The translations under genes were made by a program, and so were the position numbers. The notes under the pieces are model-generated. The model was not told the DNA's origin. It worked only from the letters and a program-made list of their open reading frames with translations, and did not search any database. Below, in pieces: positions 34,940 to 44,830 of a stretch of 44,830 bases of DNA. Every line of letters starts with the position of its first letter. The stretch's first letter is position 1. The DNA comes from an uncultured Saprospiraceae bacterium (GTDB taxonomy: Bacteria; Bacteroidota; Bacteroidia; Chitinophagales; Saprospiraceae), in NCBI GenBank assembly GCA_938002665.1, contig CALLAE010000076.1, positions 1 to 44,830 on the forward strand. The letters run 5' to 3'.

Positions 34940-35866
34940 CTAACTTCCTAACATCTTATTCAGTAGCCTCTCAAAAATCCCTACAAAAGGAAAAAATATA
35001 AGTACCCCTAGTATATTAAAAAGAATATGTCCATTTGCGATTGTGTTCCCAATACTGCCTCTAGAACCAAAGATCATAACCAACTGCTCAAAAGAATCGA
35101 AAAACAGAAGACCTAAGAAAATGCAGCTTAGATTAAACAACAAATGAAATAAACCAGCCTTCAATGCTTCCTTGGTACCTCTAATAGTAGCAAGCAAAGT
35201 ATCGAAGCACGTACCTAGCTCAGCACCTAACATTACAGCCAAGGCTGTTCCAAGACTTACTAAGTTTTGATTCCCTAGAATAATAGCCATCGCTACCGTT
35301 GCTCCTGAGGATTGTATGACTAAGGTCATCAGCCCACCTAACAATACACCTTTGAATGGACTATCGATTTTCAATATCCACTCATTGAAGTAAGGGCTAT
35401 CTTTTAGCGGGACTACGGCTTCTTGCATGATATATAAGCCAAAGAACAGCATTCCAAAGTATAAGGATATCAATCCCCACCTTAGCCATTTTTCTGACCT
35501 AATAAAGATGTAAGCCATGATACCTATGCCCAGTGGAATGATAGAATAAACACCTAATCCCAAGGCAATGATTTTGCTAGAAAATGTTGTTCCTATGTTG
35601 GCTCCCAGAATAATACCCATCGCAGGTCTTAGACTTAAGGTCCCAGCATTAATCAATACTATGGTCAGTATTATTGTGCCTGAGGAAGAATCCAAAATCA
35701 CTGTGGCTACTACACCGACTATCATCGCCATAAATAAGTTATCCGTATATCTAGAGATAAACTTATTGGCCGTTGTAGAAAAGTAATCCTTTAGTACGAG
35801 TGATAACTGACTGACGCCATAGAGGAACATCACCAGACCTCCTATGACCATTAATATTATTTGCAT
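34940..35866 (-). CDS. Na/Pi-cotransporter-family membrane protein lacking a PhoU domain
   Basis: 308 residues with about eight or nine membrane helices in two inverted-type repeats. The first holds LDSSSGTIILTIVLINAG and GIILGANIGTT, the second IQSSGATVAMAIILG and VMLGAELGTC, the family's QSSS-type ion-binding signatures. Relatives carry phosphate with sodium. Many bacterial members add a C-terminal PhoU-like domain, which is absent here. It is the last gene of a reverse-strand unit (broken Usp, dehydrogenase, this gene) with a 21-bp gap, so it is probably under the same control as the stress island. Confidence 0.88.
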   Translation of the reverse strand: MQIILMVIGGLVMFLYGVSQLSLVLKDYFSTTANKFISRYTDNLFMAMIVGVVATVILDSSSGTIILTIVLINAGTLSLRPAMGIILGANIGTTFSSKIIALGLGVYSIIPLGIGIMAYIFIRSEKWLRWGLISLYFGMLFFGLYIMQEAVVPLKDSPYFNEWILKIDSPFKGVLLGGLMTLVIQSSGATVAMAIILGNQNLVSLGTALAVMLGAELGTCFDTLLATIRGTKEALKAGLFHLLFNLSCIFLGLLFFDSFEQLVMIFGSRGSIGNTIANGHILFNILGVLIFFPFVGIFERLLNKMLGS

Positions 35867-35887
35867 TCTTAGTCTTGGAGATTTAGA

Positions 35888-36916
35888 TTAGCTGCCCATC
35901 ATGGTAATACGCTTTTCTATGTCAGCATATATCTGAGGATTGATATCATTATCACAGCGCCCTAAGCGCTCCCACTGATCGACATTATGAAATGTCGTTT
36001 CGGCAATACCTTGTAAAGCTTCTCTGGTTAAGAAGCCCTGATGAGCGGTCATTATCACATTGCCCAACTGGCTGAGTCTATGGAAATATGGAGCAGAAAT
36101 ATCTTTGTTACTATAGTCATTAAAGTACAGACCCTTCTCAAACTCATATACATCTAAGCCTGCACCTCCCAGATGTCCTTGCTCCATCAGCTCCACTAGA
36201 GCGGCTGTATCTATCACCGCACCTCTTGCAGTATTAATGATAATAGCATCCCTTTTCATTTCTCGCAGCTCATCCCTTCCTATGAGATGATGGGTACTTA
36301 TATCGAGAGGACAGCTAAGATAAAGTACATCAGATTCTCTCAGTACTTTGGTAAATGAAACATATTCTACCGCGCTAGCTTCTGCATCATTAGGCTTACA
36401 ATCATAGGCCATCACTTCACATCCAAATCCCTTCATTATCTTACCAAAATTCGACCCTATCTTCCCATAGCCTATAATGCCGACTTTCTTTCCATATAGA
36501 TCAAACCCTACTAACTGATCAAGTCGAAAATCTTGAGCTGTAAATAATTTTTGTGCCAACACAATTTTCCTCACCAGAGCTAACAGCAGAGCTACGGCAT
36601 GCTCAGAAACTGAATATGGCGAATAGGCTGGCACATTCGCAACAGATATTCCATGCGCATCTGCCGCCACTAAATCAATATGATCTACGCCTACTGATCT
36701 TGTCGTCAGGTACATTACACCGTTTTGAGCCAGTTCTCCGATCAGCTCTTCATCTATTTTACTTGAAGAAAATACAGCGACTGCCTTGTATCCTTTCGCA
36801 AGGCCCACCGTCTTTTTTGTTAGATGTTCGTCTGTAAATGTTACTTCATGTGTTCCAGAATACGACTCTAATATTTCACGATCAAAAGAATGGACGCTGT
36901 AGACTAATACCTTCAT
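35888..36916 (-). CDS. D-2-hydroxyacid dehydrogenase (D-lactate dehydrogenase-like)
   Basis: 342 residues, cytoplasmic. The NAD-binding GYGKIG is at 149-154. The catalytic set is R231 (TARGAVID), E258 or E260 (DVYEFE) and H292 (TAHQGF). Length and the TTRSVGVDHIDL segment match the fermentative D-lactate dehydrogenase group, which reduces pyruvate to D-lactate while regenerating NAD+. It lies 9 bp after the broken Usp gene and 21 bp before the Na/Pi gene. Its presence in a stress-protein unit suggests a role in redox balance under low energy or low oxygen. Confidence 0.9.
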   Translation of the reverse strand: MKVLVYSVHSFDREILESYSGTHEVTFTDEHLTKKTVGLAKGYKAVAVFSSSKIDEELIGELAQNGVMYLTTRSVGVDHIDLVAADAHGISVANVPAYSPYSVSEHAVALLLALVRKIVLAQKLFTAQDFRLDQLVGFDLYGKKVGIIGYGKIGSNFGKIMKGFGCEVMAYDCKPNDAEASAVEYVSFTKVLRESDVLYLSCPLDISTHHLIGRDELREMKRDAIIINTARGAVIDTAALVELMEQGHLGGAGLDVYEFEKGLYFNDYSNKDISAPYFHRLSQLGNVIMTAHQGFLTREALQGIAETTFHNVDQWERLGRCDNDINPQIYADIEKRITMMGS

Positions 36917-36925
36917 AGTTTCCTA

Positions 36926-37592
36926 TTAATTTAAGATCATTAAAGGCACATGCAATCTATTAGTCATGCTTTTAGTATGACTTACTCCAAAGATTCTTTC
37001 AAGAAAAGTTCTCTTAGATTTATGCATAACGATCATTTCTGCATCGTACTTATCAGCATATTGAGCTAATAGTAATTCTACTTCAGAACCTACTTCCACA
37101 TTGAATAAGGTTCTGATGGAAGGTGAATGATCCACCATGTATTTAGCAAATACTTCTATGGAACTATTGTAATTATCCTCGACTGGTCTTCTTACATATA
37201 GCACCCTGACGACGGGGCTGTGTGGCAACAGGATCTGCAGGGACCTATTCAGCTCGAATGGATCCCTATGATCCAGGTTTGTGGAAAATAGGATGTTATC
37301 GATTTTCTGATAATCGTAGTCTTTGGGTATCAAAATAATAGGACAAGGCGCTTCATTTAATACCTTAGTAGAAACGGTTCCTAGTATTTTTTGCAGAAGA
37401 TTATGATTACTGCCTTGAGTTCCCATAATGATAAGATCTGATTTTGATTTTGCTGCTTCTCTTATAATGGTGTCCACTATTCCACCCGCAGTAACCTTAG
37501 TTGTCAGTCTCTCTATCAACAAACTCCAAAGCATAAGCCAGAGCATCTTTGGCATTATCTGAAAAATCAGTAGGTATAAGTATTCTTTTCAT
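36926..37592 (-). pseudogene. Universal stress protein gene broken by an internal deletion and frameshift
   Basis: From ATG 37592 the frame opens as a typical Usp (MKRILIPTDFSDNAKDALAY then ALEFVDRETDN) but stops at TAA 37497-37499 after 31 codons. Usp sequence resumes in another frame at VTAGGIVDTIIREAAK, followed by MGTQG and the ATP-type G-x2-G-x9-GT motif, then a second, complete Usp domain. Compared with the intact neighbour at 37709-38506, about 50 residues of the first domain are missing. An ATG at 37555 could start a 209-residue product with a nonsense N-terminus. It is led by its own operator pair and followed closely by two intact genes. Confidence 0.85.
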
Positions 37593-37609
37593 AATAATTA
37601 GTTGTAATA

Positions 37610-37640: not shown

Positions 37641-37674
37641 TGATGACAATCAACCATGGAGATGAGTTTGGTCA
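37641..37674 (-). promoter_or_regulatory. Paired Crp/Fnr-type operator (two TGA-N6-TCA, 22 bp apart)
   Basis: TGA-TGACAA-TCA (37641-37652) and TGA-GTTTGG-TCA (37663-37674). The nearer site is centred 54.5 nt before the broken usp start at 37592. The same paired layout recurs at three other promoters in this island, which makes chance unlikely. Confidence 0.7.
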
Positions 37675-37708
37675 GTCACTAAATTCCAACAGATTGAGGG
37701 TAAGGCTA

Positions 37709-38506
37709 CTATTCAGGCACGATCAGCAAAGGCACAAAGCATCTCTGGATTTCCTCAGAAATATGATCTTTTGTAAAAAGCTTTGCCCAGAAGCCCTTAG
37801 CTCTTTTGACCATCACTAATAATTGATAATCATTACTCCGCACAAAATCCATTAACTTAAAGCCTACATCCTTGCTTTTAACAAGATGTGCCTCACCCAT
37901 ATAATCTTGCAAGAAATTGCCTACAAATGGATCAAAAGGAAAAGCTGTTTCATCTTTATTCGCCACGTGAATCAGATCTATTTTGTTATCCCATTTCTTT
38001 GCTAATTGCAAGGGGATATAAAAAGAAAAGCTATGCTCTAAGGTTTGATTATCCAGAGCTAACAAAATGCTAGATGGTGGATATTGTACAATCTGCTCAG
38101 AAGGCACAACCAGAACAGGCACCATTGCTTTGCTAACAACTTCTTCTGCGATACTGCCCATGAATATATTCTGCAAAGATGAATTCCCTTGTGATCCCAT
38201 TACGATCAAGTCCATTTCCTCTTTACTAGTATAGTCTAGTATCTCAGAAGTAGCCTCTCCATAAATCACACTAGCCTTAGCTTTCCCACTAAAAGACGGA
38301 GGAAGCTTCTTTATAAGTGACCTCACATCTGCGAGGTGCTTCTTATGCAACTCTTCTTTCAACTCCTTAAAGCTTTCTACGACCTGAGAGATTCTGAATA
38401 CATGTAGTACGTGCAAGTCTGCACGCATATCTTCTGCTACCCTTGCTGCATAATGGAGTGCAGATACAGATTGCTTAGAAAAATCTATTGGACATAATAC
38501 TTTCAT
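37709..38506 (-). CDS. Tandem universal stress protein (UspA family)
   Basis: 265 residues, two Usp domains (about 1-140 and 145-265). The first opens MKVLCPIDFSKQSVSALHYA and has the ATP-binding motif MGSQGNSSLQNIFMGS (G-x2-G-x9-GS). In the second domain that motif is lost (VMVKRAKGFWAKLF), a frequent pattern in tandem Usps. The role is stress survival, often under low oxygen or starvation, through ATP-dependent partner binding. It is divergent from the island's forward operon across a 225-bp region holding two operator pairs. Confidence 0.92.
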   Translation of the reverse strand: MKVLCPIDFSKQSVSALHYAARVAEDMRADLHVLHVFRISQVVESFKELKEELHKKHLADVRSLIKKLPPSFSGKAKASVIYGEATSEILDYTSKEEMDLIVMGSQGNSSLQNIFMGSIAEEVVSKAMVPVLVVPSEQIVQYPPSSILLALDNQTLEHSFSFYIPLQLAKKWDNKIDLIHVANKDETAFPFDPFVGNFLQDYMGEAHLVKSKDVGFKLMDFVRSNDYQLLVMVKRAKGFWAKLFTKDHISEEIQRCFVPLLIVPE

Positions 38507-38524
38507 CTGTTAATATATTTTATG

Positions 38525-38532
38525 CAAGTATA
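38525..38532 (-). promoter_or_regulatory. Putative -7 box of the usp (37709-38506) promoter
   Basis: Reads TATACTTG on the reverse strand, one base off TAnnTTTG. It is centred 33 bp from the centre of the palindrome at 38556-38567, which would place that site at about -40 relative to the transcription start. Confidence 0.5.
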
Positions 38533-38555
38533 GCGTAGGATACAAACAGATATAA

Positions 38556-38589
38556 TGACTAGAATCATTAGCGTCGATGATAGTGGACA
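38556..38589 (-). promoter_or_regulatory. Paired Crp/Fnr-type operator of the usp gene
   Basis: The proximal site TAATGA-CTAGAA-TCATTA (38553-38570) is a perfect 6-bp-arm palindrome with a TGA-N6-TCA core, centred 55.5 nt before the usp start. The distal site, 22 bp away, is TGA-TAGTGG-ACA (38578-38589), matching five of six core bases. Confidence 0.72.
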
Positions 38590-38650
38590 GCAGTCCAGCA
38601 CATAATGATAATCACAACATGACAGCTCAGAGGAATCAGAAAGATGAAGA

Positions 38651-38684
38651 TGAGCATTCTCATACCACCTACTGAGATAGATCA
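38651..38684 (+). promoter_or_regulatory. Paired Crp/Fnr-type operator of the forward stress operon
   Basis: TGA-GCATTC-TCA (38651-38662, inside the palindrome ATGAG-CATT-CTCAT) and TGA-GATAGA-TCA (38673-38684), 22 bp centre to centre. The proximal site is centred 53.5 nt before the ATG at 38732. A weaker -7-like AGATCTTG lies at 38707-38714. Confidence 0.72.
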
Positions 38685-38731
38685 TTCATTAAAGCAAGAA
38701 TCAGTCAGATCTTGCACTAAAATTAAATAGG

Positions 38732-38875
38732 ATGAAACATTTAGAAAACATACTAAGCCATACAGAAATAAGCACAATGCCTTATGGGGTACTGATTGTA
38801 ACTCTTCTGCTTTCCTTAGCTGTACTTATCATAAGTGTACTAGTTGTAACTTCTTATGTAACTAGCCAAGACTAA
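38732..38875 (+). CDS. 47-residue single-helix membrane protein, first gene of the stress operon
   Basis: A small frame, ATG 38732 to TAA 38875, that standard gene finding may miss. It has a polar N-terminus (MKHLENILSHTEISTM), one strongly hydrophobic segment (about 20-43, LIVTLLLSLAVLIISVLVV) and a short polar tail. The start is preceded by AAATAGG. It ends 9 bp before the next gene and begins 54 nt after a predicted operator, which supports it being real. The function is unknown. Confidence 0.65.
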   Translation: MKHLENILSHTEISTMPYGVLIVTLLLSLAVLIISVLVVTSYVTSQD

Positions 38876-38884
38876 TATCAAAAA

Positions 38885-39274
38885 ATGAAAATCAAGAAAA
38901 ACAAAACCATCAAGGCCTTCAAAGAAGAGTTCCATAAAATCTTTCCTGGTTTGAAAATAGAATTCTTTAGTACTGCTCATGGTCATCACGAAGGCTCTAA
39001 TAAGCGAACCATTTACGATGAGGATACTTTGTTTGGCGACATTATCCAGCAGGGTAAAGAAGGTGAATTGATCATGGACGCTAACATGAGGGTATCAGAG
39101 ATGGAAGCAAAAATGAAGCAGTTATTTGACTTAAATGTTCAAGTATATCGTAGATCAAATGATCTCTGGCTCCAGACTATTTCTACAGATGACCTGACAC
39201 TAGAAACACAGAATCGAAAAGGACTGCACTCTATTCAAGAAAATACAAAACTCAAGCAATGGATATCAAAATAG
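38885..39274 (+). CDS. Conserved-looking 129-residue protein of unknown function in the stress operon
   Basis: 129 residues, soluble and highly charged. It begins with a basic helix (MKIKKNKTIKAFKEEFHKIF), has a His-rich turn (STAHGHHEGSNKR) and contains a long acidic-basic helical middle. No known family is recognised. Its last 16 bp overlap the start of the HPF-like gene, so the two are translationally linked. Position suggests a role in hibernation or stress, but this is inference. Confidence 0.75.
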   Translation: MKIKKNKTIKAFKEEFHKIFPGLKIEFFSTAHGHHEGSNKRTIYDEDTLFGDIIQQGKEGELIMDANMRVSEMEAKMKQLFDLNVQVYRRSNDLWLQTISTDDLTLETQNRKGLHSIQENTKLKQWISK

Positions 39275-39564
39275 AAGCCCAAGGGCACCCTAATCAAACA
39301 AAGCTGATAGAATACTATGACAAAAGACTTTCTAAGAAGTATGGACAGTATCCGTTCATCAAGACTCTAAAGGTAAAAGTGGATATAGAAAACAAAACGG
39401 ATACAAAAGTGGCTATCAACATGGCTGTAGAAAAAGGCGGAAAATTATACGCCAGTCATTCTGACTCCAATGAAAATAGAGCACTGGAAGAAGTCATCAG
39501 GAAGACAAATGTCCAATTAGAAAAATATAAGCAAAAGCACTATTCCCATTCTACTGACAAATAA
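39259..39564 (+). CDS. hpf: Ribosome hibernation-promoting factor / RaiA-family protein (short form)
   Basis: 101 residues. The pattern of the S30AE fold is present: MDIKIEAQGHPNQTKLIEYY (strand and helix), the LSKKYGQYPFIKTLKVKVD segment, a middle strand with VAINMAVEKGGKLYAS, and a basic C-terminal helix (VIRKTNVQLEKYKQKH). HPF-like proteins bind the decoding centre of idle ribosomes and promote 100S dimers or silence translation in stationary phase. Only the N-terminal domain is present, as in short HPF and RaiA. Its start overlaps the preceding gene by 16 bp. Confidence 0.8.
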   Translation: MDIKIEAQGHPNQTKLIEYYDKRLSKKYGQYPFIKTLKVKVDIENKTDTKVAINMAVEKGGKLYASHSDSNENRALEEVIRKTNVQLEKYKQKHYSHSTDK

Positions 39565-39590
39565 TTATTCACTAAGAAGCACCACTTATT

Positions 39591-40412
39591 ATGCGCATAC
39601 TCGTACCAACTGACTTTTCATCCTATGCCGACTCAGCATTGAATGTAGCTCTGCTCATAGGCAAGGCATATAATGCTCAAGTAGATTTATTTCACTCCAC
39701 GGATAGTTTTCTACCGTGGCAGAAAGACTACTTATCCGACATAAGAGCCTCTTATAAAACCAGCATTGAGGAAAGGCTAGAGTTGCTGAAGAAAGATGTT
39801 CAAAAAGAAGGATTGAAATCTGAATACTATGTGGGGACAGGATCTCTTGTAGATGATCTTAGGAGACAGGTCGACATGCACGATTATGATCTTATCGTCA
39901 TGGGATCTCATGGAGCAAGAGCTAAAGAAGAGTGGTTCTTAGGCACTTATGCACAAAAGGTCATAAGGAAAATCCATGAGAATGTATTAGTGATCAAGAA
40001 GGACTTTAAGAAAATAGATTTCTCAGAAGTGCTATTTGTAACGGGTTTAGAATTAGAAGATCAGGAAGCCTTGAAATACTTTCTGGAATTTATTCAGCCA
40101 TTTGAGGTGAAAAAAGTACATATCATGGCTGTCGACACTTCAGGCTTTTACTCTCAGCCGACTATCCTCATGTTAGAAGCTCTCAAAGATTTCAAGGAAA
40201 TAGCAAGCGCTTTTGATACAGAGACACATTTCTATACTGACTATTCTGTGGATGCTGGTGTCAGGCACTTTTCAAAGGAAAATGGCATAGACCTCATAGC
40301 AATGTCTAACCACTCTAGAAGACCCATCAAGAGAATATTCCAAGGGTCTAATGTAGAAATAGTAGTAAACCACAGCGAGATTCCAGTATTAACTATTGAT
40401 TATAAAAACTAA
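39591..40412 (+). CDS. Tandem universal stress protein (UspA family)
   Basis: 273 residues, two Usp domains. The first opens MRILVPTDFSSYADSALNVA and has the ATP motif MGSHGARAKEEWFLGT (G-x2-G-x9-GT). The second ends with a degenerate version (NHSRRPIKRIFQGSN) and PVLTIDYKN. It follows the HPF-like gene by 26 bp and precedes the next Usp by 2 bp, so all are co-transcribed. Confidence 0.92.
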   Translation: MRILVPTDFSSYADSALNVALLIGKAYNAQVDLFHSTDSFLPWQKDYLSDIRASYKTSIEERLELLKKDVQKEGLKSEYYVGTGSLVDDLRRQVDMHDYDLIVMGSHGARAKEEWFLGTYAQKVIRKIHENVLVIKKDFKKIDFSEVLFVTGLELEDQEALKYFLEFIQPFEVKKVHIMAVDTSGFYSQPTILMLEALKDFKEIASAFDTETHFYTDYSVDAGVRHFSKENGIDLIAMSNHSRRPIKRIFQGSNVEIVVNHSEIPVLTIDYKN

Positions 40413-40414
40413 CT

Positions 40415-41227
40415 ATGAAAAAAATACTTTTTGCAACCGACTTCTCAGAAAACTGCGCTAAGGCTCAAGAATATGTAGCACAACTAGCTGCAGATGCTCT
40501 TGCCCAGGTGGACATCATACATATTTATAAAATTCCAGTTTTCGAACTTGCAGCAATTCCAAGTACTCGGGTAGCAACGGTACTGGAAGCAAGTAAAGCA
40601 AAGGCTCAGATAAAACTGAATCATCATATGGATGAGCTAGAAGAAAAGATCAAAGGTGAAGGACACCTAGTTCTGGGAACAAGTCCAGCCGAGGAAATTA
40701 TATCTGTAGCTAACAAAATAAAGGCAGATTGTATTATCACCGCCCTAGATGAAGAACATGGTTTCCTAGAGAAACTATTAGGCTCCACAACCTACCAGAC
40801 ACTAAGTAGTACAAACGTTCCCATTATAGCATTGCCTAAGAATATTAAGTATTTAGGTCTGGGAGAAATAGTCTTTCCCACAGAAAAGAAAACTTTTTCC
40901 TCCATCCCTGAAAATGAGCATCAAATGTTTGGTTGGCTAGCAGATCTTACGACCTCTAAAGACAATATTCACATCTCTTCCATACATGTAGAATCAGAAA
41001 CAACAGATAGCAATGTAGATGTGGTCTATCATCACGACAACATTGATTACCAGAAAGTTTTTGCTGATAATATAGTACAAGGAATCAGACAGACCATCAA
41101 AGACAAAAAAGCCAATGCACTAGCGCTAAAGTTGTCTGACAGAAATATCCTAACCAGGATATTAAGGCCTCTTAAGAGCAAGAGGCTTATCTATAATTCT
41201 AATGTGCCGCTCATATTGTTTCCCTAA
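40415..41227 (+). CDS. Tandem universal stress protein, ATP-binding motif lost
   Basis: 270 residues. The first Usp domain opens MKKILFATDFSENCAKAQEY but its motif region reads ALDEEHGFLEKLLGST, with the first glycines replaced. The second domain (about 145-270) has no glycine motif at all (KLSDRNILTRILRPLKS). It is therefore likely of the non-ATP-binding Usp class, perhaps a partner for the ATP-type Usp encoded 2 bp upstream. C-terminal NSNVPLILFP is the usual closing strand. Confidence 0.88.
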   Translation: MKKILFATDFSENCAKAQEYVAQLAADALAQVDIIHIYKIPVFELAAIPSTRVATVLEASKAKAQIKLNHHMDELEEKIKGEGHLVLGTSPAEEIISVANKIKADCIITALDEEHGFLEKLLGSTTYQTLSSTNVPIIALPKNIKYLGLGEIVFPTEKKTFSSIPENEHQMFGWLADLTTSKDNIHISSIHVESETTDSNVDVVYHHDNIDYQKVFADNIVQGIRQTIKDKKANALALKLSDRNILTRILRPLKSKRLIYNSNVPLILFP

Positions 41228-41268
41228 ATAAAGTTGCTCATCATCACCACATTCAAAAAAAATAAGTT

Positions 41269-41928
41269 ATGAGATATTTACTTCTACTTTCTATAGCATT
41301 CCTTTTCGCTTGCGAACCAAAGGTCTACTTCGAGAAGGCACAACCTAAGGAACTTAAAGCTCTGACAGAGATTCCTACTGACTTTAGAGGCATCTACATA
41401 TTTGCCAGTGACAGTAGCATCGTAAGGGCCAATAATGATGTTATCGCGATAGATTCTTATTTCGAGTATGAGACCAGACTTTCTAATGCCCAAGAATCAG
41501 AAAGTTGCAAGATAGCAAATGGCGGTATATATCTAAGAGGTGCTAAGAAATGCATTCCATATGAGTCGATAGACGAAGACATTGTCAGAGCTAAAATCTA
41601 TTCCATAGACACCATCTTTACTTTTAATAAATACAACGTCGCCAAGCTTTACAAAGACAAGCTCTTCTTAAGTTATAGAGATAAGGAGGGACGATGGGTA
41701 GTCAATGCATTGACACCACTAAAGAGTGGATCATTTTTGTGGGAACTGATAGATATCCCTGACAGAGTACATACTATAGAAAGCATTTCTCCCAGTTACA
41801 GACGAGTCATGAAGTCAGATTCTACTTTCTTCTATATCGTAGATCCAGACTTAAAAGGATTTCAAAAAATCCTAGACAGGGAATACATGACATACTGTGA
41901 TACACTACATCCCTTCATTATCAACTAA
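41269..41928 (+). CDS. Lipoprotein of unknown function in the stress operon
   Basis: 219 residues. The lipoprotein signal ends at AFLFAC. The mature chain opens EPKVYFEKAQPKELKAL and looks beta-rich (GIYIFASDSSIVR, YKDKLFLSYRD), with two further Cys (KSCK-type at SESCKI and KKCIPY) about 20 residues apart that could form a disulfide. No family is recognised. Gaps of 41 and 17 bp to its neighbours place it in the operon. It is the island's only predicted lipoprotein. Confidence 0.75.
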   Translation: MRYLLLLSIAFLFACEPKVYFEKAQPKELKALTEIPTDFRGIYIFASDSSIVRANNDVIAIDSYFEYETRLSNAQESESCKIANGGIYLRGAKKCIPYESIDEDIVRAKIYSIDTIFTFNKYNVAKLYKDKLFLSYRDKEGRWVVNALTPLKSGSFLWELIDIPDRVHTIESISPSYRRVMKSDSTFFYIVDPDLKGFQKILDREYMTYCDTLHPFIIN

Positions 41929-41945
41929 GACAAAAATCATCCAAA

Positions 41946-42371
41946 ATGACAAGTGCAACTCAGACACAACAGATCAGAAGCATTATGACAGAATATGTAC
42001 TAACTGTCACAGCAGATACTCCCTTTACGGAAGCTTGTAGGATGTTCAATAATTTCAGCATCCATCACCTTCCAGTAGTAGAAAACAACAACGAAATCAT
42101 AGGGTTATTTTCCTTTACTGATGCGATGAGAGCCTTTAATGACAAGGTGTACAATCAAACTACTATCAATGAAAAAGGCATCAATAATGTGGTCAAAATA
42201 GATGAAATAATGACCGCTCACAAGGTATATACCCTAGGCCCCGATGATGATATCAAGCATGCGATAACCTTATTTAAAGAATACAACATTCATTCTATAC
42301 CTATAGCGCAAGAAGGGAAGTTAGTCGGCATCCTCACTACTAATGATATCATCAATAAAGTCTGTGATTAG
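41946..42371 (+). CDS. Two-CBS-domain protein
   Basis: 141 residues made of a CBS pair (about 10-66 and 78-138). The motifs RSIMTEYVLTVTADTPFTEA, HHLPVVENNNEIIGLFSFTD and IHSIPIAQEGKLVGILTTND are typical. CBS pairs bind adenine nucleotides such as AMP or ATP and sense cell energy state. There is no attached enzyme, so it probably acts as a free sensor or regulator. It is the last gene of the long forward operon. Confidence 0.93.
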   Translation: MTSATQTQQIRSIMTEYVLTVTADTPFTEACRMFNNFSIHHLPVVENNNEIIGLFSFTDAMRAFNDKVYNQTTINEKGINNVVKIDEIMTAHKVYTLGPDDDIKHAITLFKEYNIHSIPIAQEGKLVGILTTNDIINKVCD

Positions 42372-42398
42372 CAGAGTCAGAGCAGAACTTTCTGTATG

Positions 42399-42432
42399 TG
42401 ACTAAGATCATAGCACCTAATGACCTCTCTCA
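42399..42432 (+). promoter_or_regulatory. Paired Crp/Fnr-type operator upstream of the 84-residue membrane protein
   Basis: TGTGA-CTAAGA-TCA (core 42399-42410) and TAATGA-CCTCTC-TCAT (core 42421-42432), again exactly 22 bp centre to centre. The nearer site is centred 68.5 nt before ATG 42495. A separate promoter for this gene is therefore likely. Confidence 0.7.
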
Positions 42433-42463: not shown

Positions 42464-42494
42464 GAGTATTAATGAACTTAAAAACAATTGTAAA

Positions 42495-42749
42495 ATGACA
42501 TACTTTAATCTTTCTTTCGACAAAGTAATAATCAGATACTATCTAATGATGGCTATAGTTCTTGCTGCCTTTTATATAGGACTACCCTATCTAGGTCTTT
42601 TAGCTGTACCAGTTTTCTTAAGTGCAATAATGGGTATTAGCTTTACAAGACATGAGCAGAAAGAAGCAGGAGAGCAAAAAGAGAGCAACCTGGAAGTATA
42701 CCCACCAAGAGCTCAAGGCCAGATCGCACAAGGCAAATTAGTATACTAA
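42495..42749 (+). CDS. Small membrane protein with hydrophilic tail
   Basis: 84 residues. Two adjacent hydrophobic segments (about 14-30 and 31-48) form a likely helical hairpin, followed by a charged 36-residue tail (RHEQKEAGEQKESNLEVYPP). No family is recognised. It has its own operator pair and converges on the response-regulator gene with 2 bp between stops. Confidence 0.72.
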   Translation: MTYFNLSFDKVIIRYYLMMAIVLAAFYIGLPYLGLLAVPVFLSAIMGISFTRHEQKEAGEQKESNLEVYPPRAQGQIAQGKLVY

Positions 42750-42751
42750 AG

Positions 42752-43810
42752 CTAGCCTATTAGAGTCTCTAGCTCTGTCAGATCAGGAATACTTATGGAC
42801 TGGGTAGTAATCTCTATGAGGCCCTCACTTTTAAAATCTGAAAGTGTCCTGATTAAAGTCTCCTTTGCTGTTCCAGCAAGCGCGGCAAGATCATCTCTAG
42901 AGACTTTGAGCTGGTAAGAATTATCATCAATAGGAGTTGTTTTCTTGGCGAACGTACATAGTGCATTCGCCACTTTTTTTCTTACCGAACTATAAGCTAG
43001 ATCGAGCAATTGCATTTCCTTATCCCTATTCTTCTGAGCCAACATTTTTATAAACTGTGCTCCGAAGTCTCTATTATTATAGAGTAAGAGGAAGAAGTCA
43101 TCCTTAGGAATCAATCGTAAAGTTGCATCTGTAGTACAACCGGCTGAATGATTATAAGATTGCTCACCTATCAGCGCATTATAGCCGAAAAAATCTCCTT
43201 CAGAATAAAGCTCAGTTGTGAGTTCCTTGCCATATTCATTTGTTTTGTAAGCCTTGACGCTTCCTGTCACAACAAAGAATAGCCATCTGGCAGTCTGTCC
43301 CTCTTCGTAGATAGTAGCCTTTTTCTTATACTCTCTCAACTCCTTATCTAGAGATAGCTTTTCTAATTCCTGAACGGCTTTTGCTTCAGAAAAGAAAGTC
43401 TGCAGTCCTGACTCACTCTGATCAAAAGATGACTGAATCCGCTCAGCTTTTTTTAGCCTCACTTCTATAGCCTCTAGAAGTTCTACATCATCAAAGGGCT
43501 TAGTAATATAGTCTTCTGCGCCTAGGCCCATACCCTTTCTCATGTCAGATTTTTCTGCTCTGGCAGTAAGAAAGATCAGAGGTATATGATTGAGGTCTGG
43601 ACTTCTATTGAGTATTTTCATCACACCAAAACCATCTAGCTCTGGCATCATTACGTCACAGAGGATTAAGTCTGGCTGATGCTCTCTTGCTGAGGTCACA
43701 CCTTTCTTACCATTCTCAGCAGCGACTACTTCGTAACCTGAAAGCTCTAAAATCTCGCAAAGATTTTCTCTAACCTCTGCAGTATCTTCTATCACTAGAA
43801 TCTTTTTCAT
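42752..43810 (-). CDS. Response regulator fused to a Crp/Fnr-type cNMP-binding and HTH module
   Basis: 352 residues. The receiver domain (1-120) has phosphoacceptor D52, T82 and K104. A cyclic-nucleotide-binding-type beta-roll follows (about 170-285, FFVVTGSVKAYKTNEYG, YSEGDFFGYNALIG). The Crp-type winged helix is at about 295-350. In its recognition helix (GTAKETLIRTL), E317 and R321 match the Glu and Arg that read the GA of the TGA half-site in Crp and Fnr. No Fnr-type Cys cluster is present. The gene overlaps the histidine kinase by 4 bp (ATGA), so the two form a two-component pair. It is the prime candidate to bind the eight TGA-N6-TCA sites in this island. Confidence 0.93.
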   Translation of the reverse strand: MKKILVIEDTAEVRENLCEILELSGYEVVAAENGKKGVTSAREHQPDLILCDVMMPELDGFGVMKILNRSPDLNHIPLIFLTARAEKSDMRKGMGLGAEDYITKPFDDVELLEAIEVRLKKAERIQSSFDQSESGLQTFFSEAKAVQELEKLSLDKELREYKKKATIYEEGQTARWLFFVVTGSVKAYKTNEYGKELTTELYSEGDFFGYNALIGEQSYNHSAGCTTDATLRLIPKDDFFLLLYNNRDFGAQFIKMLAQKNRDKEMQLLDLAYSSVRKKVANALCTFAKKTTPIDDNSYQLKVSRDDLAALAGTAKETLIRTLSDFKSEGLIEITTQSISIPDLTELETLIG

Positions 43811-44830
43811 AAATCAATTTTTTGAGGTAAACTAACAATGAAGGTTGTCCCTTCTCCTTCCTTACTTCTAAATGAGATAGTACCTCTCAGTAATTCCACA
43901 TATCTACTCACTATACTTAAGCCCAATCCAGTTCCTTGTATATTCTCCACATTTGTGGCTCTGAAAAACCTATTGAACATATGCTTCTGGTCTGCCTGTG
44001 GAATGCCCATGCCATTATCTTCCACCTCCACGATCACTGTATCCTCCAGAGTACGGAACTTACACTGTATCTGCCCACTCTCTCCACTATACTTTATAGC
44101 ATTAGAAACTAAGTTGAAGAGGATATTCTTTAGGATTCTTTTGTCAGAGACTATTTCTATATTTTCTGGCGTAGAAACATGTATAATCTTTTGTTCCTTT
44201 TTAAGCAGTCCTTTGACTTCATCGTTCACAGAATTACAAAGCATACCCAAATTAACGACTTCCGGCTTAACTTCTACCTTCCCTTCTTCTATCTTACTTA
44301 GAGAAAGAAAATCATTTAAGATACCAGTAAGATTAACCACTGAAGATTTGATTCTTTCCACATGCTTTTCTCTTTTATCATGCTGGTCCTCCTGCTTATA
44401 TCGAGAGATGAGGGCCGCAGATGAGAGTATAGTACTCAGTGGTGTACGGAATTCATGACTGGCCATAGAAACAAATCTTGACTTCAGTTCATTAAGCTCT
44501 TTTTCTTTTTGTAATGCAGTAGATAGCTCTAGATCCCGTTCTTCCAGCAGCTTGTTTGTACTGAGTAATTTATTCACAACAGATTCTAACTCATCAGTCC
44601 TCTTCTGTACTTTATCTTCTAGCTCTTCATTCAGATCCAACAGTCTCTGTTCGGCATCCTTTACAGCAGATAGATCATGTATGATCCCAGTATAGATGAC
44701 CCTATCGTTAAGTATCACTTCACTGACAGCCAATCTAAATGGAAATTGGGTTCCATCTTCTCTCTTCCCTATCACCTCTCTACCAGTTCCTATTATGCGG
44801 GGTTGTTTCGTTCGTTGATAGCGTTCTAGG
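43807..44830 (-). CDS. PAS-domain sensor histidine kinase, N-terminus beyond the window
   Basis: About 340 residues are visible; the frame stays open to the window end, so an internal GTG at 44775 is not the true start. The first visible part (RIIGTGREVIGKREDGTQFP) is the second half of a PAS domain. A coiled coil leads to the H-box (ASHEFRTPLSTI), the N-box (NLVSNAIKYS) and the ATP lid (DNGMGI, GTGLGLSI). The signal sensed cannot be told from this half. It overlaps the response regulator by 4 bp and should phosphorylate D52 there. Confidence 0.92.
   Translation of the reverse strand, partial: LERYQRTKQPRIIGTGREVIGKREDGTQFPFRLAVSEVILNDRVIYTGIIHDLSAVKDAEQRLLDLNEELEDKVQKRTDELESVVNKLLSTNKLLEERDLELSTALQKEKELNELKSRFVSMASHEFRTPLSTILSSAALISRYKQEDQHDKREKHVERIKSSVVNLTGILNDFLSLSKIEEGKVEVKPEVVNLGMLCNSVNDEVKGLLKKEQKIIHVSTPENIEIVSDKRILKNILFNLVSNAIKYSGESGQIQCKFRTLEDTVIVEVEDNGMGIPQADQKHMFNRFFRATNVENIQGTGLGLSIVSRYVELLRGTISFRSKEGEGTTFIVSLPQKIDL

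Follow-up and report, generated by a model that had tools for sequence, protein, structure and literature searches.

Paired Crp/Fnr-type sites at a fixed 22-bp spacing in Saprospiraceae promoters and a candidate receiver–Crp fusion regulator

Promoter rules outside the Proteobacteria are less well known, and the Escherichia coli promoters that carry tandem CRP sites are individual cases with varied spacing. A closely comparable described system is FixL-FixJ-FixK2 of Bradyrhizobium, for which the parts of the publication available to us list Usp, Hsp20, nitroreductase, ppsA, and phosphoketolase in the FixK2 table and give fixNOQP as a FixK2 target (PMC9104804). Here, we analyzed 44,830 nt of DNA from an uncultured Saprospiraceae bacterium (Bacteroidota; GenBank assembly GCA_938002665.1, contig CALLAE010000076.1, positions 1 to 44,830; this whole stretch is called the window below). 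Its stress island carries four pairs of TGA-N6-TCA palindromes, the two sites of each pair lying 22 bp apart. Computation establishes the pairs, their spacing, their register relative to the −7 promoter element, their link to a regulator, and the kinds of genes that follow them in related genomes. We consider it probable that the pairs are a class II activator promoter module for two dimers, read here by an adjoining receiver–Crp fusion protein under a FixL-like kinase, and probably serving oxygen limitation.

Paired sites at one spacing in the window and across genomes

Three of the four pairs, beginning at 37641, 38651, and 42399, are perfect, and the pair at 38556 has one mismatch, in its second site at 38578. 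A first-pass annotation of this DNA had reported these four pairs with their 22-bp spacing and had placed the nearer site 53.5–55.5 nt before the start codon in three of the promoters. Both statements hold: for the start codons at 37592, 38506, and 38732, the proximal site is centered 54.5, 55.5, and 53.5 nt upstream, respectively. For the pair at 42399, the distance to the start codon is uncertain (candidate starts 42454, 42472, or 42495). Such pairs are rare by chance: the window contains 5 matches with at most one mismatch to TGA-N6-TCA-N10-TGA-N6-TCA, compared with a mean of 0.27 per dinucleotide shuffle, and 0 of 100 shuffles reached 5. The fifth of these matches, at 43587, lies within the regulator gene. 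Outside the island, where the annotation had noted one site, two perfect single sites (4686 and 16808) were classed as intergenic, by a rough classing based on open reading frames (ORFs) that also put the sites 38556, 38651, and 38673 inside a spurious ORF.

To measure spacing on a larger scale, we assembled two sets of sequence. Set A holds up to 20 kb around each of 70 regulator places, chosen by protein alone, together with the window (1.27 Mb in all); 71 such places were found outside the window, one of which (G059, broken) was left out, two further stretches from the window's own genome were kept out of the set, and genes were called by a simple longest-ORF rule. Set B holds 80 named loci from another collection, mostly from Saprospiraceae and Lewinella kin and including Portibacter, Chryseolinea, and Reichenbachiella. 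The two sets overlap in genomes, and shared sequence was removed only for the spacing count in set B. Among the intergenic perfect pairs of set A, 82 were spaced at 22 bp and 9 at 23 bp, every remaining spacing between 3 and 80 bp having two or fewer. Set B gave 112 pairs at 22 bp and 8 at 23 bp, with five or fewer for each of the remaining spacings up to 120 bp. There is thus a minor 23-bp class (9–10 in set A, 8 in set B), which may be genuine. Pairs were not equally common in coding DNA, a check that the first-pass annotation had proposed: at 22 bp, set A has 82 in 122 kb of intergenic sequence versus 11 in 1,153 kb of coding sequence. Across 120 genomes, the window's own included, we counted 470 perfect pairs versus 11 for a reversed control pattern. 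In an even sample of the phylum (395 genomes), 152 genomes had at least one pair, a figure in which single pairs may be chance and for which controls were not summed.

Promoter geometry and the genes behind the pairs

We aligned 170 promoters on the pair alone, these being what was left of 205 pairs once 31 inside predicted ORFs (some of them probably spurious) and 4 in convergent positions were left out. The alignment shows the Bacteroidota −7 box at T57 A58 … T61 T62 T63 G64, with G at 2% at one middle position. This box agrees with the Flavobacterium johnsoniae consensus TAHHTTTG, running from T−12 to G−5, in the portion of the source available to us (PMC6847099). When G64 is set at −5, +1 falls at position 69 (A in 59%), and the proximal and distal sites are therefore centered at −41.5 and −63.5, as inferred from the −7 register. 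No −33 motif was found in the 170 aligned promoters besides the proximal site itself. A −7 box matching at least 5/6 bases stood at offset 23 in 101 of the 170 promoters, compared with a mean of 1.4 at offsets outside 22–24. The reverse test gave the same geometry: when single sites followed by a −7 box at offset 23 were collected from intergenic DNA, 168 of the 206 were accompanied at −22 by a distal site matching at least 5/6 bases, and over all 253 such sites, coding DNA included, the distal site was at −22 in 190 versus 0–11 at any other distance from 12 to 44. The promoter grammar can thus be written site-10-site-23-TAnnTTTG. This full pattern, with at most 2 mismatches, gave 353 matches versus 3 for the control in a group of 16 genomes, 15 of them selected for their many pairs. 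One stretch from another family of the same order (G505:C21:1-60000, loci L228–L230) has twenty full-pattern matches listed in about 50 kb, some being both directions of one pair; it also carries a fusion regulator (C21:49327) and resembles a large stress/low-oxygen island.

Within the window, two of the double operators lie on the minus strand. The one at 37641..37674, for the usp gene starting at 37592, has the −7 box CAATTTTG (5/6, offset 23; predicted +1 near 37605), and the one at 38556..38589, with its single mismatch in the distal site, for the usp gene starting at 38506, has TATACTTG (5/6, offset 23; predicted +1 near 38520). On the plus strand, the operator at 38651..38684 would serve the short ORF at 38732 and perhaps genes beyond it (predicted +1 near 38720), and the operator at 42399..42432 lies ahead of a small ORF (predicted +1 near 42468). 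Because the −7 boxes of these last two match at only 3/6 (weak, at the conserved offset) and 4/6, respectively, both promoters would be weak or strongly activator-dependent.

The palindromic TGA-N6-TCA core is that of Crp/Fnr-superfamily operators, and the proximal site, centered at −41.5 by the register of the 170 promoters, has the class II position. These features support the first-pass reading of a fixed double-site operator of Crp/Fnr type, which fits both the −41.5/−63.5 positions and the adjoining receiver–Crp protein, binding being predicted. We propose that two activator dimers of this superfamily would bind next to each other at a distance of two helical turns. The dimer at −41.5 would replace the −33 element and could touch RNA polymerase, as at class II promoters; the dimer at −63.5 would add cooperative binding or contact to the alpha subunit; and the −7 box TAnnTTTG would follow 23 bp after the pair. 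Alternatively, the two sites may be bound independently, the distal one serving as an extra class I-like site for alpha-subunit contact with no cooperation between dimers. The portion available to us of a study of E. coli promoters agrees with this alternative, in that Crp motifs are centered there at −61.5 for class I and −41.5 for class II (PMC5957442), near the −63.5 and −41.5 of the present pairs. However, the spacing of 22 bp, rarely 23 bp, is much more rigid than helical phasing needs, and the distal site recurs in the reverse test in 168/206. Moreover, a third site continues at a further 22-bp step 10 times beside the 205 pairs, versus 0–4 times at seven other steps (triples being counted from both pairs). 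None of these observations is proof of contact, and we hold independent binding to be less likely than not. Arrays of three sites in 22-bp steps can be seen at L077:2991-3046, G089:C9:96410, and G091:C2:2518584.

The genes behind the pairs are of recurrent kinds. Among first-in-operon genes of set A, a pair matching 11/12 core bases or better lies no more than about 200 nt upstream of 20 of 21 CBS genes and 20 of 35 usp genes, compared with 50 of 495 others and 1 overall for the control. The pairs are thus conserved upstream of related usp genes, the second check that had been proposed. In total, 137 genes of set A have a pair, including 23 CBS, 22 Usp, 3 Hsp20, and 2 FixG_C genes. For genes farther from the regulator, we fetched 73 loci because they held the full pattern; some of the loci from G505 are on the regulator's contig, and the remainder are mostly elsewhere. 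A gene began no more than 250 nt from the predicted start, with no opposing gene between, at 86 of the 118 far matches, and the first genes at these 86, which come from 7 genomes, were scanned. They include Usp (8), P-type ATPases with PF12156 (CcoI-type; 4), COX1 (3), FixO (3), CBS (3), PFOR (2), and nitroreductase (2), and the far set is broad, as 112 Pfam families were matched in total. Genes of cbb3 oxidase and its maturation, looked for in relatives' loci, are represented by the COX1, FixO, and PF12156 genes of the far set and by FixG_C of the near set. On these family assignments, the genes behind the pairs in relatives appear to resemble a FixK regulon: Usp, CBS, Hsp20, cbb3 oxidase, CcoI/FixG, and PFOR.

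The window's own 3.76-Mb genome contains only four perfect pairs, three in the window and one at C127:19549, some 50 nt ahead of a gene for a protein with two CBS domains. The motif is therefore a small regulon in this genome; a widespread one is rejected by that count and by the full promoter pattern, which at up to 3 mismatches gave 13 matches versus 4 for the control.

Candidate regulator, its kinase, and rival explanations

The activator at these promoters is most likely the adjoining fusion protein (42752..43810, minus strand; 352 aa), which has a receiver domain (4–116), a cNMP-binding-like domain (PF00027), and a Crp helix-turn-helix, and which would be phosphorylated by the neighboring kinase. 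By protein search (E 1e-60), the fusion was found in 64 of the 120 genomes, the window's own included. These 64 genomes hold 405 pairs (control 1), with at least 2 pairs in 50 of them, compared with 65 pairs (control 10) in the 56 genomes without the fusion, at least 2 pairs being present in 13 (Mann–Whitney p = 1.8e-10, which is optimistic because the genomes are related). Of those 13, G056 encodes a full-length but divergent copy; fragments similar to the Crp half (about 50% identity) occur in G050 and G061, and a match to a Crp/Fnr protein lacking the receiver in G089, G100, G104, G108, G110, and G112. When 22 pair-rich genomes were picked from the 395, 17 had a full-length fusion and 4 a receiver-less homologue, with G497 giving only a receiver match (E 1e-24). 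In one genome (G029; loci L055, L062, L077), the fusion regulator is present three times and perfect pairs number 27. The regulator operon is itself preceded by a pair in 20/63 cases in set A and 32/77 in set B, which suggests autoregulation in part of the cases.

We aligned 40 of the 65 fusion genes from set A loci with the window copy, and found the phosphoacceptor D52, K104, and, in the DNA-binding helix, E317 and R321 kept in all 41 copies. AlphaFold predicts two domains joined by a loose linker at 130–140 (mean pLDDT 84.1, pTM 0.50), and the DNA-binding half matches Crp structures, the best solved sequence match being 2gau of Porphyromonas gingivalis. A homologue of the window's kinase stands directly upstream of the regulator in 42 of 66 set A copies; these 42 neighboring kinases were aligned except for the window's own, which is cut. 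The PAS domain of the closest relative's kinase (L046) best matches FixL (1d06, 1.5e-29), the next protein being DosP (9e-13). All 40 readable kinases keep the His of the HDxY motif, and by eye the PAS motif is FixL's IIGxGR type in 27 and a generic MGxx in 13, of which 12 come from other families of the order. The window's partner histidine kinase (43807..44829, minus strand) is interrupted by the contig end and shows the PAS end RIIGTGR, like FixL's RIIGIxR. The contig end (44829–44830) within this gene hides the start of the sensor and any operator upstream. Because most relatives' kinases have a FixL-like PAS domain, low oxygen is the likely signal, and the system would work like FixL-FixJ-FixK with the FixJ receiver and FixK fused in one protein. 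We infer that the fusion binds and activates these promoters, that its dimers cooperate, that the kinase phosphorylates it, and that oxygen is the signal.

Several observations weigh against reading the pairs as operators of a FixL-controlled fusion. In the window's own genome, pairs with at most one mismatch are little above control (23 versus 16), and the −7 boxes at 38651 and 42399 are poor. The window's own kinase sensor is cut off, its copy ending at the contig edge before the conserved His, and that His is in any case no proof of heme, as it is also kept in the 13/40 readable kinases with the generic PAS motif. Of the genomes with the fusion, 14/64 have only 0–1 perfect pairs, and four genomes with pairs (G040 with 9, G010 with 4, G009 and G055 with 2 each) lack both the fusion and an Fnr-like match at the thresholds used. 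Finally, in loci of genomes without the fusion (11 loci, 10 genomes), a −7 box of at least 5/6 stands at offset 23 for 11 of 18 pairs, with three more at 24; several of these loci were chosen for 22-bp pairs, which biases the spacing count (18 at 22 bp) and leaves the −7 offset unbiased. Because the −7 offset is the same at pairs in genomes without the fusion, the operator does not depend on the receiver, and the receiver domain is unlikely to be the cause of the 22-bp spacing.

These last results bear on a second alternative, that the sites are real and that their activator is a receiver-less Fnr-like protein (with CxxC near the N-terminus and perhaps Fe-S) or another Crp-type protein, the fusion being merely nearby. 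In fusion-less genomes of other families, pairs lie on the contig of a receiver-less Crp/Fnr gene (G089, G100, G104, G108, G112, G265), some genomes have both kinds of protein, and the four genomes with 2–9 pairs and neither kind also fit. The fusion lacks the N-terminal cysteines of Fnr (4Fe-4S), its N-terminus being the receiver, and many receiver-less relatives have CxxC near the N-terminus. However, in the window's own genome the Fnr-like query (E 1e-25) matched nothing other than the fusion, and the number of pairs follows the fusion, with a mean of 6.3 perfect pairs per genome where it is present versus 1.67 with an Fnr-like protein only and 0.98 with neither. We thus regard an Fnr-like activator as unlikely at this locus and retain the fusion as the candidate. 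In a tree of DNA-binding halves, 32 of 33 receiver-less proteins stand apart from the fusions (100/98); the remaining one, L361:376-1101, groups with the fusions and has perhaps lost its receiver. We give even chances to the broader proposal that many Bacteroidota families share one rigid low-oxygen/stress module, in which abutting Crp/Fnr dimers at −41.5 and −63.5, ahead of a −7 box, act as a cooperative unit, and the operator is read by either a phosphorylated FixJ–FixK fusion or a receiver-less Fnr-like protein, the sensor being swapped while the DNA code stays fixed. As both sensor types occur beside the same operator, the evolution of regulatory wiring becomes directly testable.

A third explanation is that the sites are double because they serve divergent promoters, each site being proximal for one direction. 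Of the 174 intergenic pairs, 86 do lie between divergent genes, and −7 boxes flank the pair on both sides in 16. However, where the arrangement is tandem (84 pairs), the −7 box lies toward the gene 60 times and away from it 3 times, and the window's own divergent region (38507–38731) has two separate pairs. We reject divergent transcription as the general reason for pairing and think it very improbable, while it may hold for a minority. That the pairs are a chance or compositional artefact, for which the near-control count in the window's own genome could be cited, is rejected as next to impossible given the shuffles, the rigid spacing in both sets, the genome-wide control, and the fixed −7 register.

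Among the other genes of the island, the usp gene at 36926..37592 (minus strand) has its first codons (37592) and its main ORF (36926–37555) in different frames, which is a split ORF or an assembly error. Following it on the same strand, a Na/Pi cotransporter ORF (PF02690) and a D-2-hydroxyacid dehydrogenase (PF02826) at 34940–36916 may share its operon. The second usp gene (37709..38506, minus strand) encodes a universal stress protein of 265 aa (PF00582, 1e-30). On the plus strand, a probable operon at 38885..41227 comprises a 129-aa ORF, an S30AE (HPF-like) protein, and two Usp proteins; it is followed at 41269..42371 by a 219-aa ORF and a two-CBS-domain protein, and at 42495..42749 by an 84-aa ORF. 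Where genes similar to this last ORF stand first in an operon in set A, a pair precedes 5 of 6, the window's included.

Comparison with known systems

The fixed −7 box, the FixL-like kinase, and the FixK-like gene content go beyond what the first-pass annotation had claimed. The parts of the module are of known kinds, and we did not find their combination or the regulon-wide rigidity described in the literature searched: a search of open-licence papers returned no double Crp/Fnr operator and no receiver–Crp regulator in Bacteroidota, which is weak evidence of novelty. For several families of a major phylum, the result is a promoter grammar that is both precise and testable; it makes regulons predictable from sequence alone and hints at how Saprospiraceae and their relatives switch on genes for oxygen limitation.

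The tandem CRP-site promoters of E. coli likewise have two dimers of one activator per promoter, whereas here a single spacing recurs. The class II promoters of E. coli CRP and FNR, as described in the available portion of PMC5957442, share the proximal site at −41.5; they differ from the present promoters, which have a near-constant second site at −63.5 regulon-wide and a TAnnTTTG −7 element. The Crp/Fnr protein 2gau of P. gingivalis matches the Crp half only, its 232-residue chain being too short for a receiver domain. The hFixL-FxkR-FixK system of Rhizobium leguminosarum, as far as the accessible part of PMC7888657 describes it, is alike in oxygen sensing via FixL to a FixK protein and unlike in having a separate FxkR step and FixK as its own protein.

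The closest likeness is to FixL-FixJ-FixK2 of Bradyrhizobium, for which we rely on the same partial source as above (PMC9104804). Both systems have a PAS kinase, FixL-like here in the closest relative and by motif in 27 of 40 readable copies, and a Crp/Fnr-type output, with the half-site arrangement TTGA/C-N6-T/GCAA in Bradyrhizobium, and the kinds of targets common to FixK2 and the pairs in relatives are cbb3 oxidase, Usp, Hsp20, nitroreductase, and PPDK_N proteins beside ppsA. In contrast, the system described here, known from its sequence alone, has no separate FixJ and FixK proteins: receiver and Crp half form one protein, and there would therefore be no separate FixJ step. It further differs in its fixed pairs of sites and in its Bacteroidota-type promoter.

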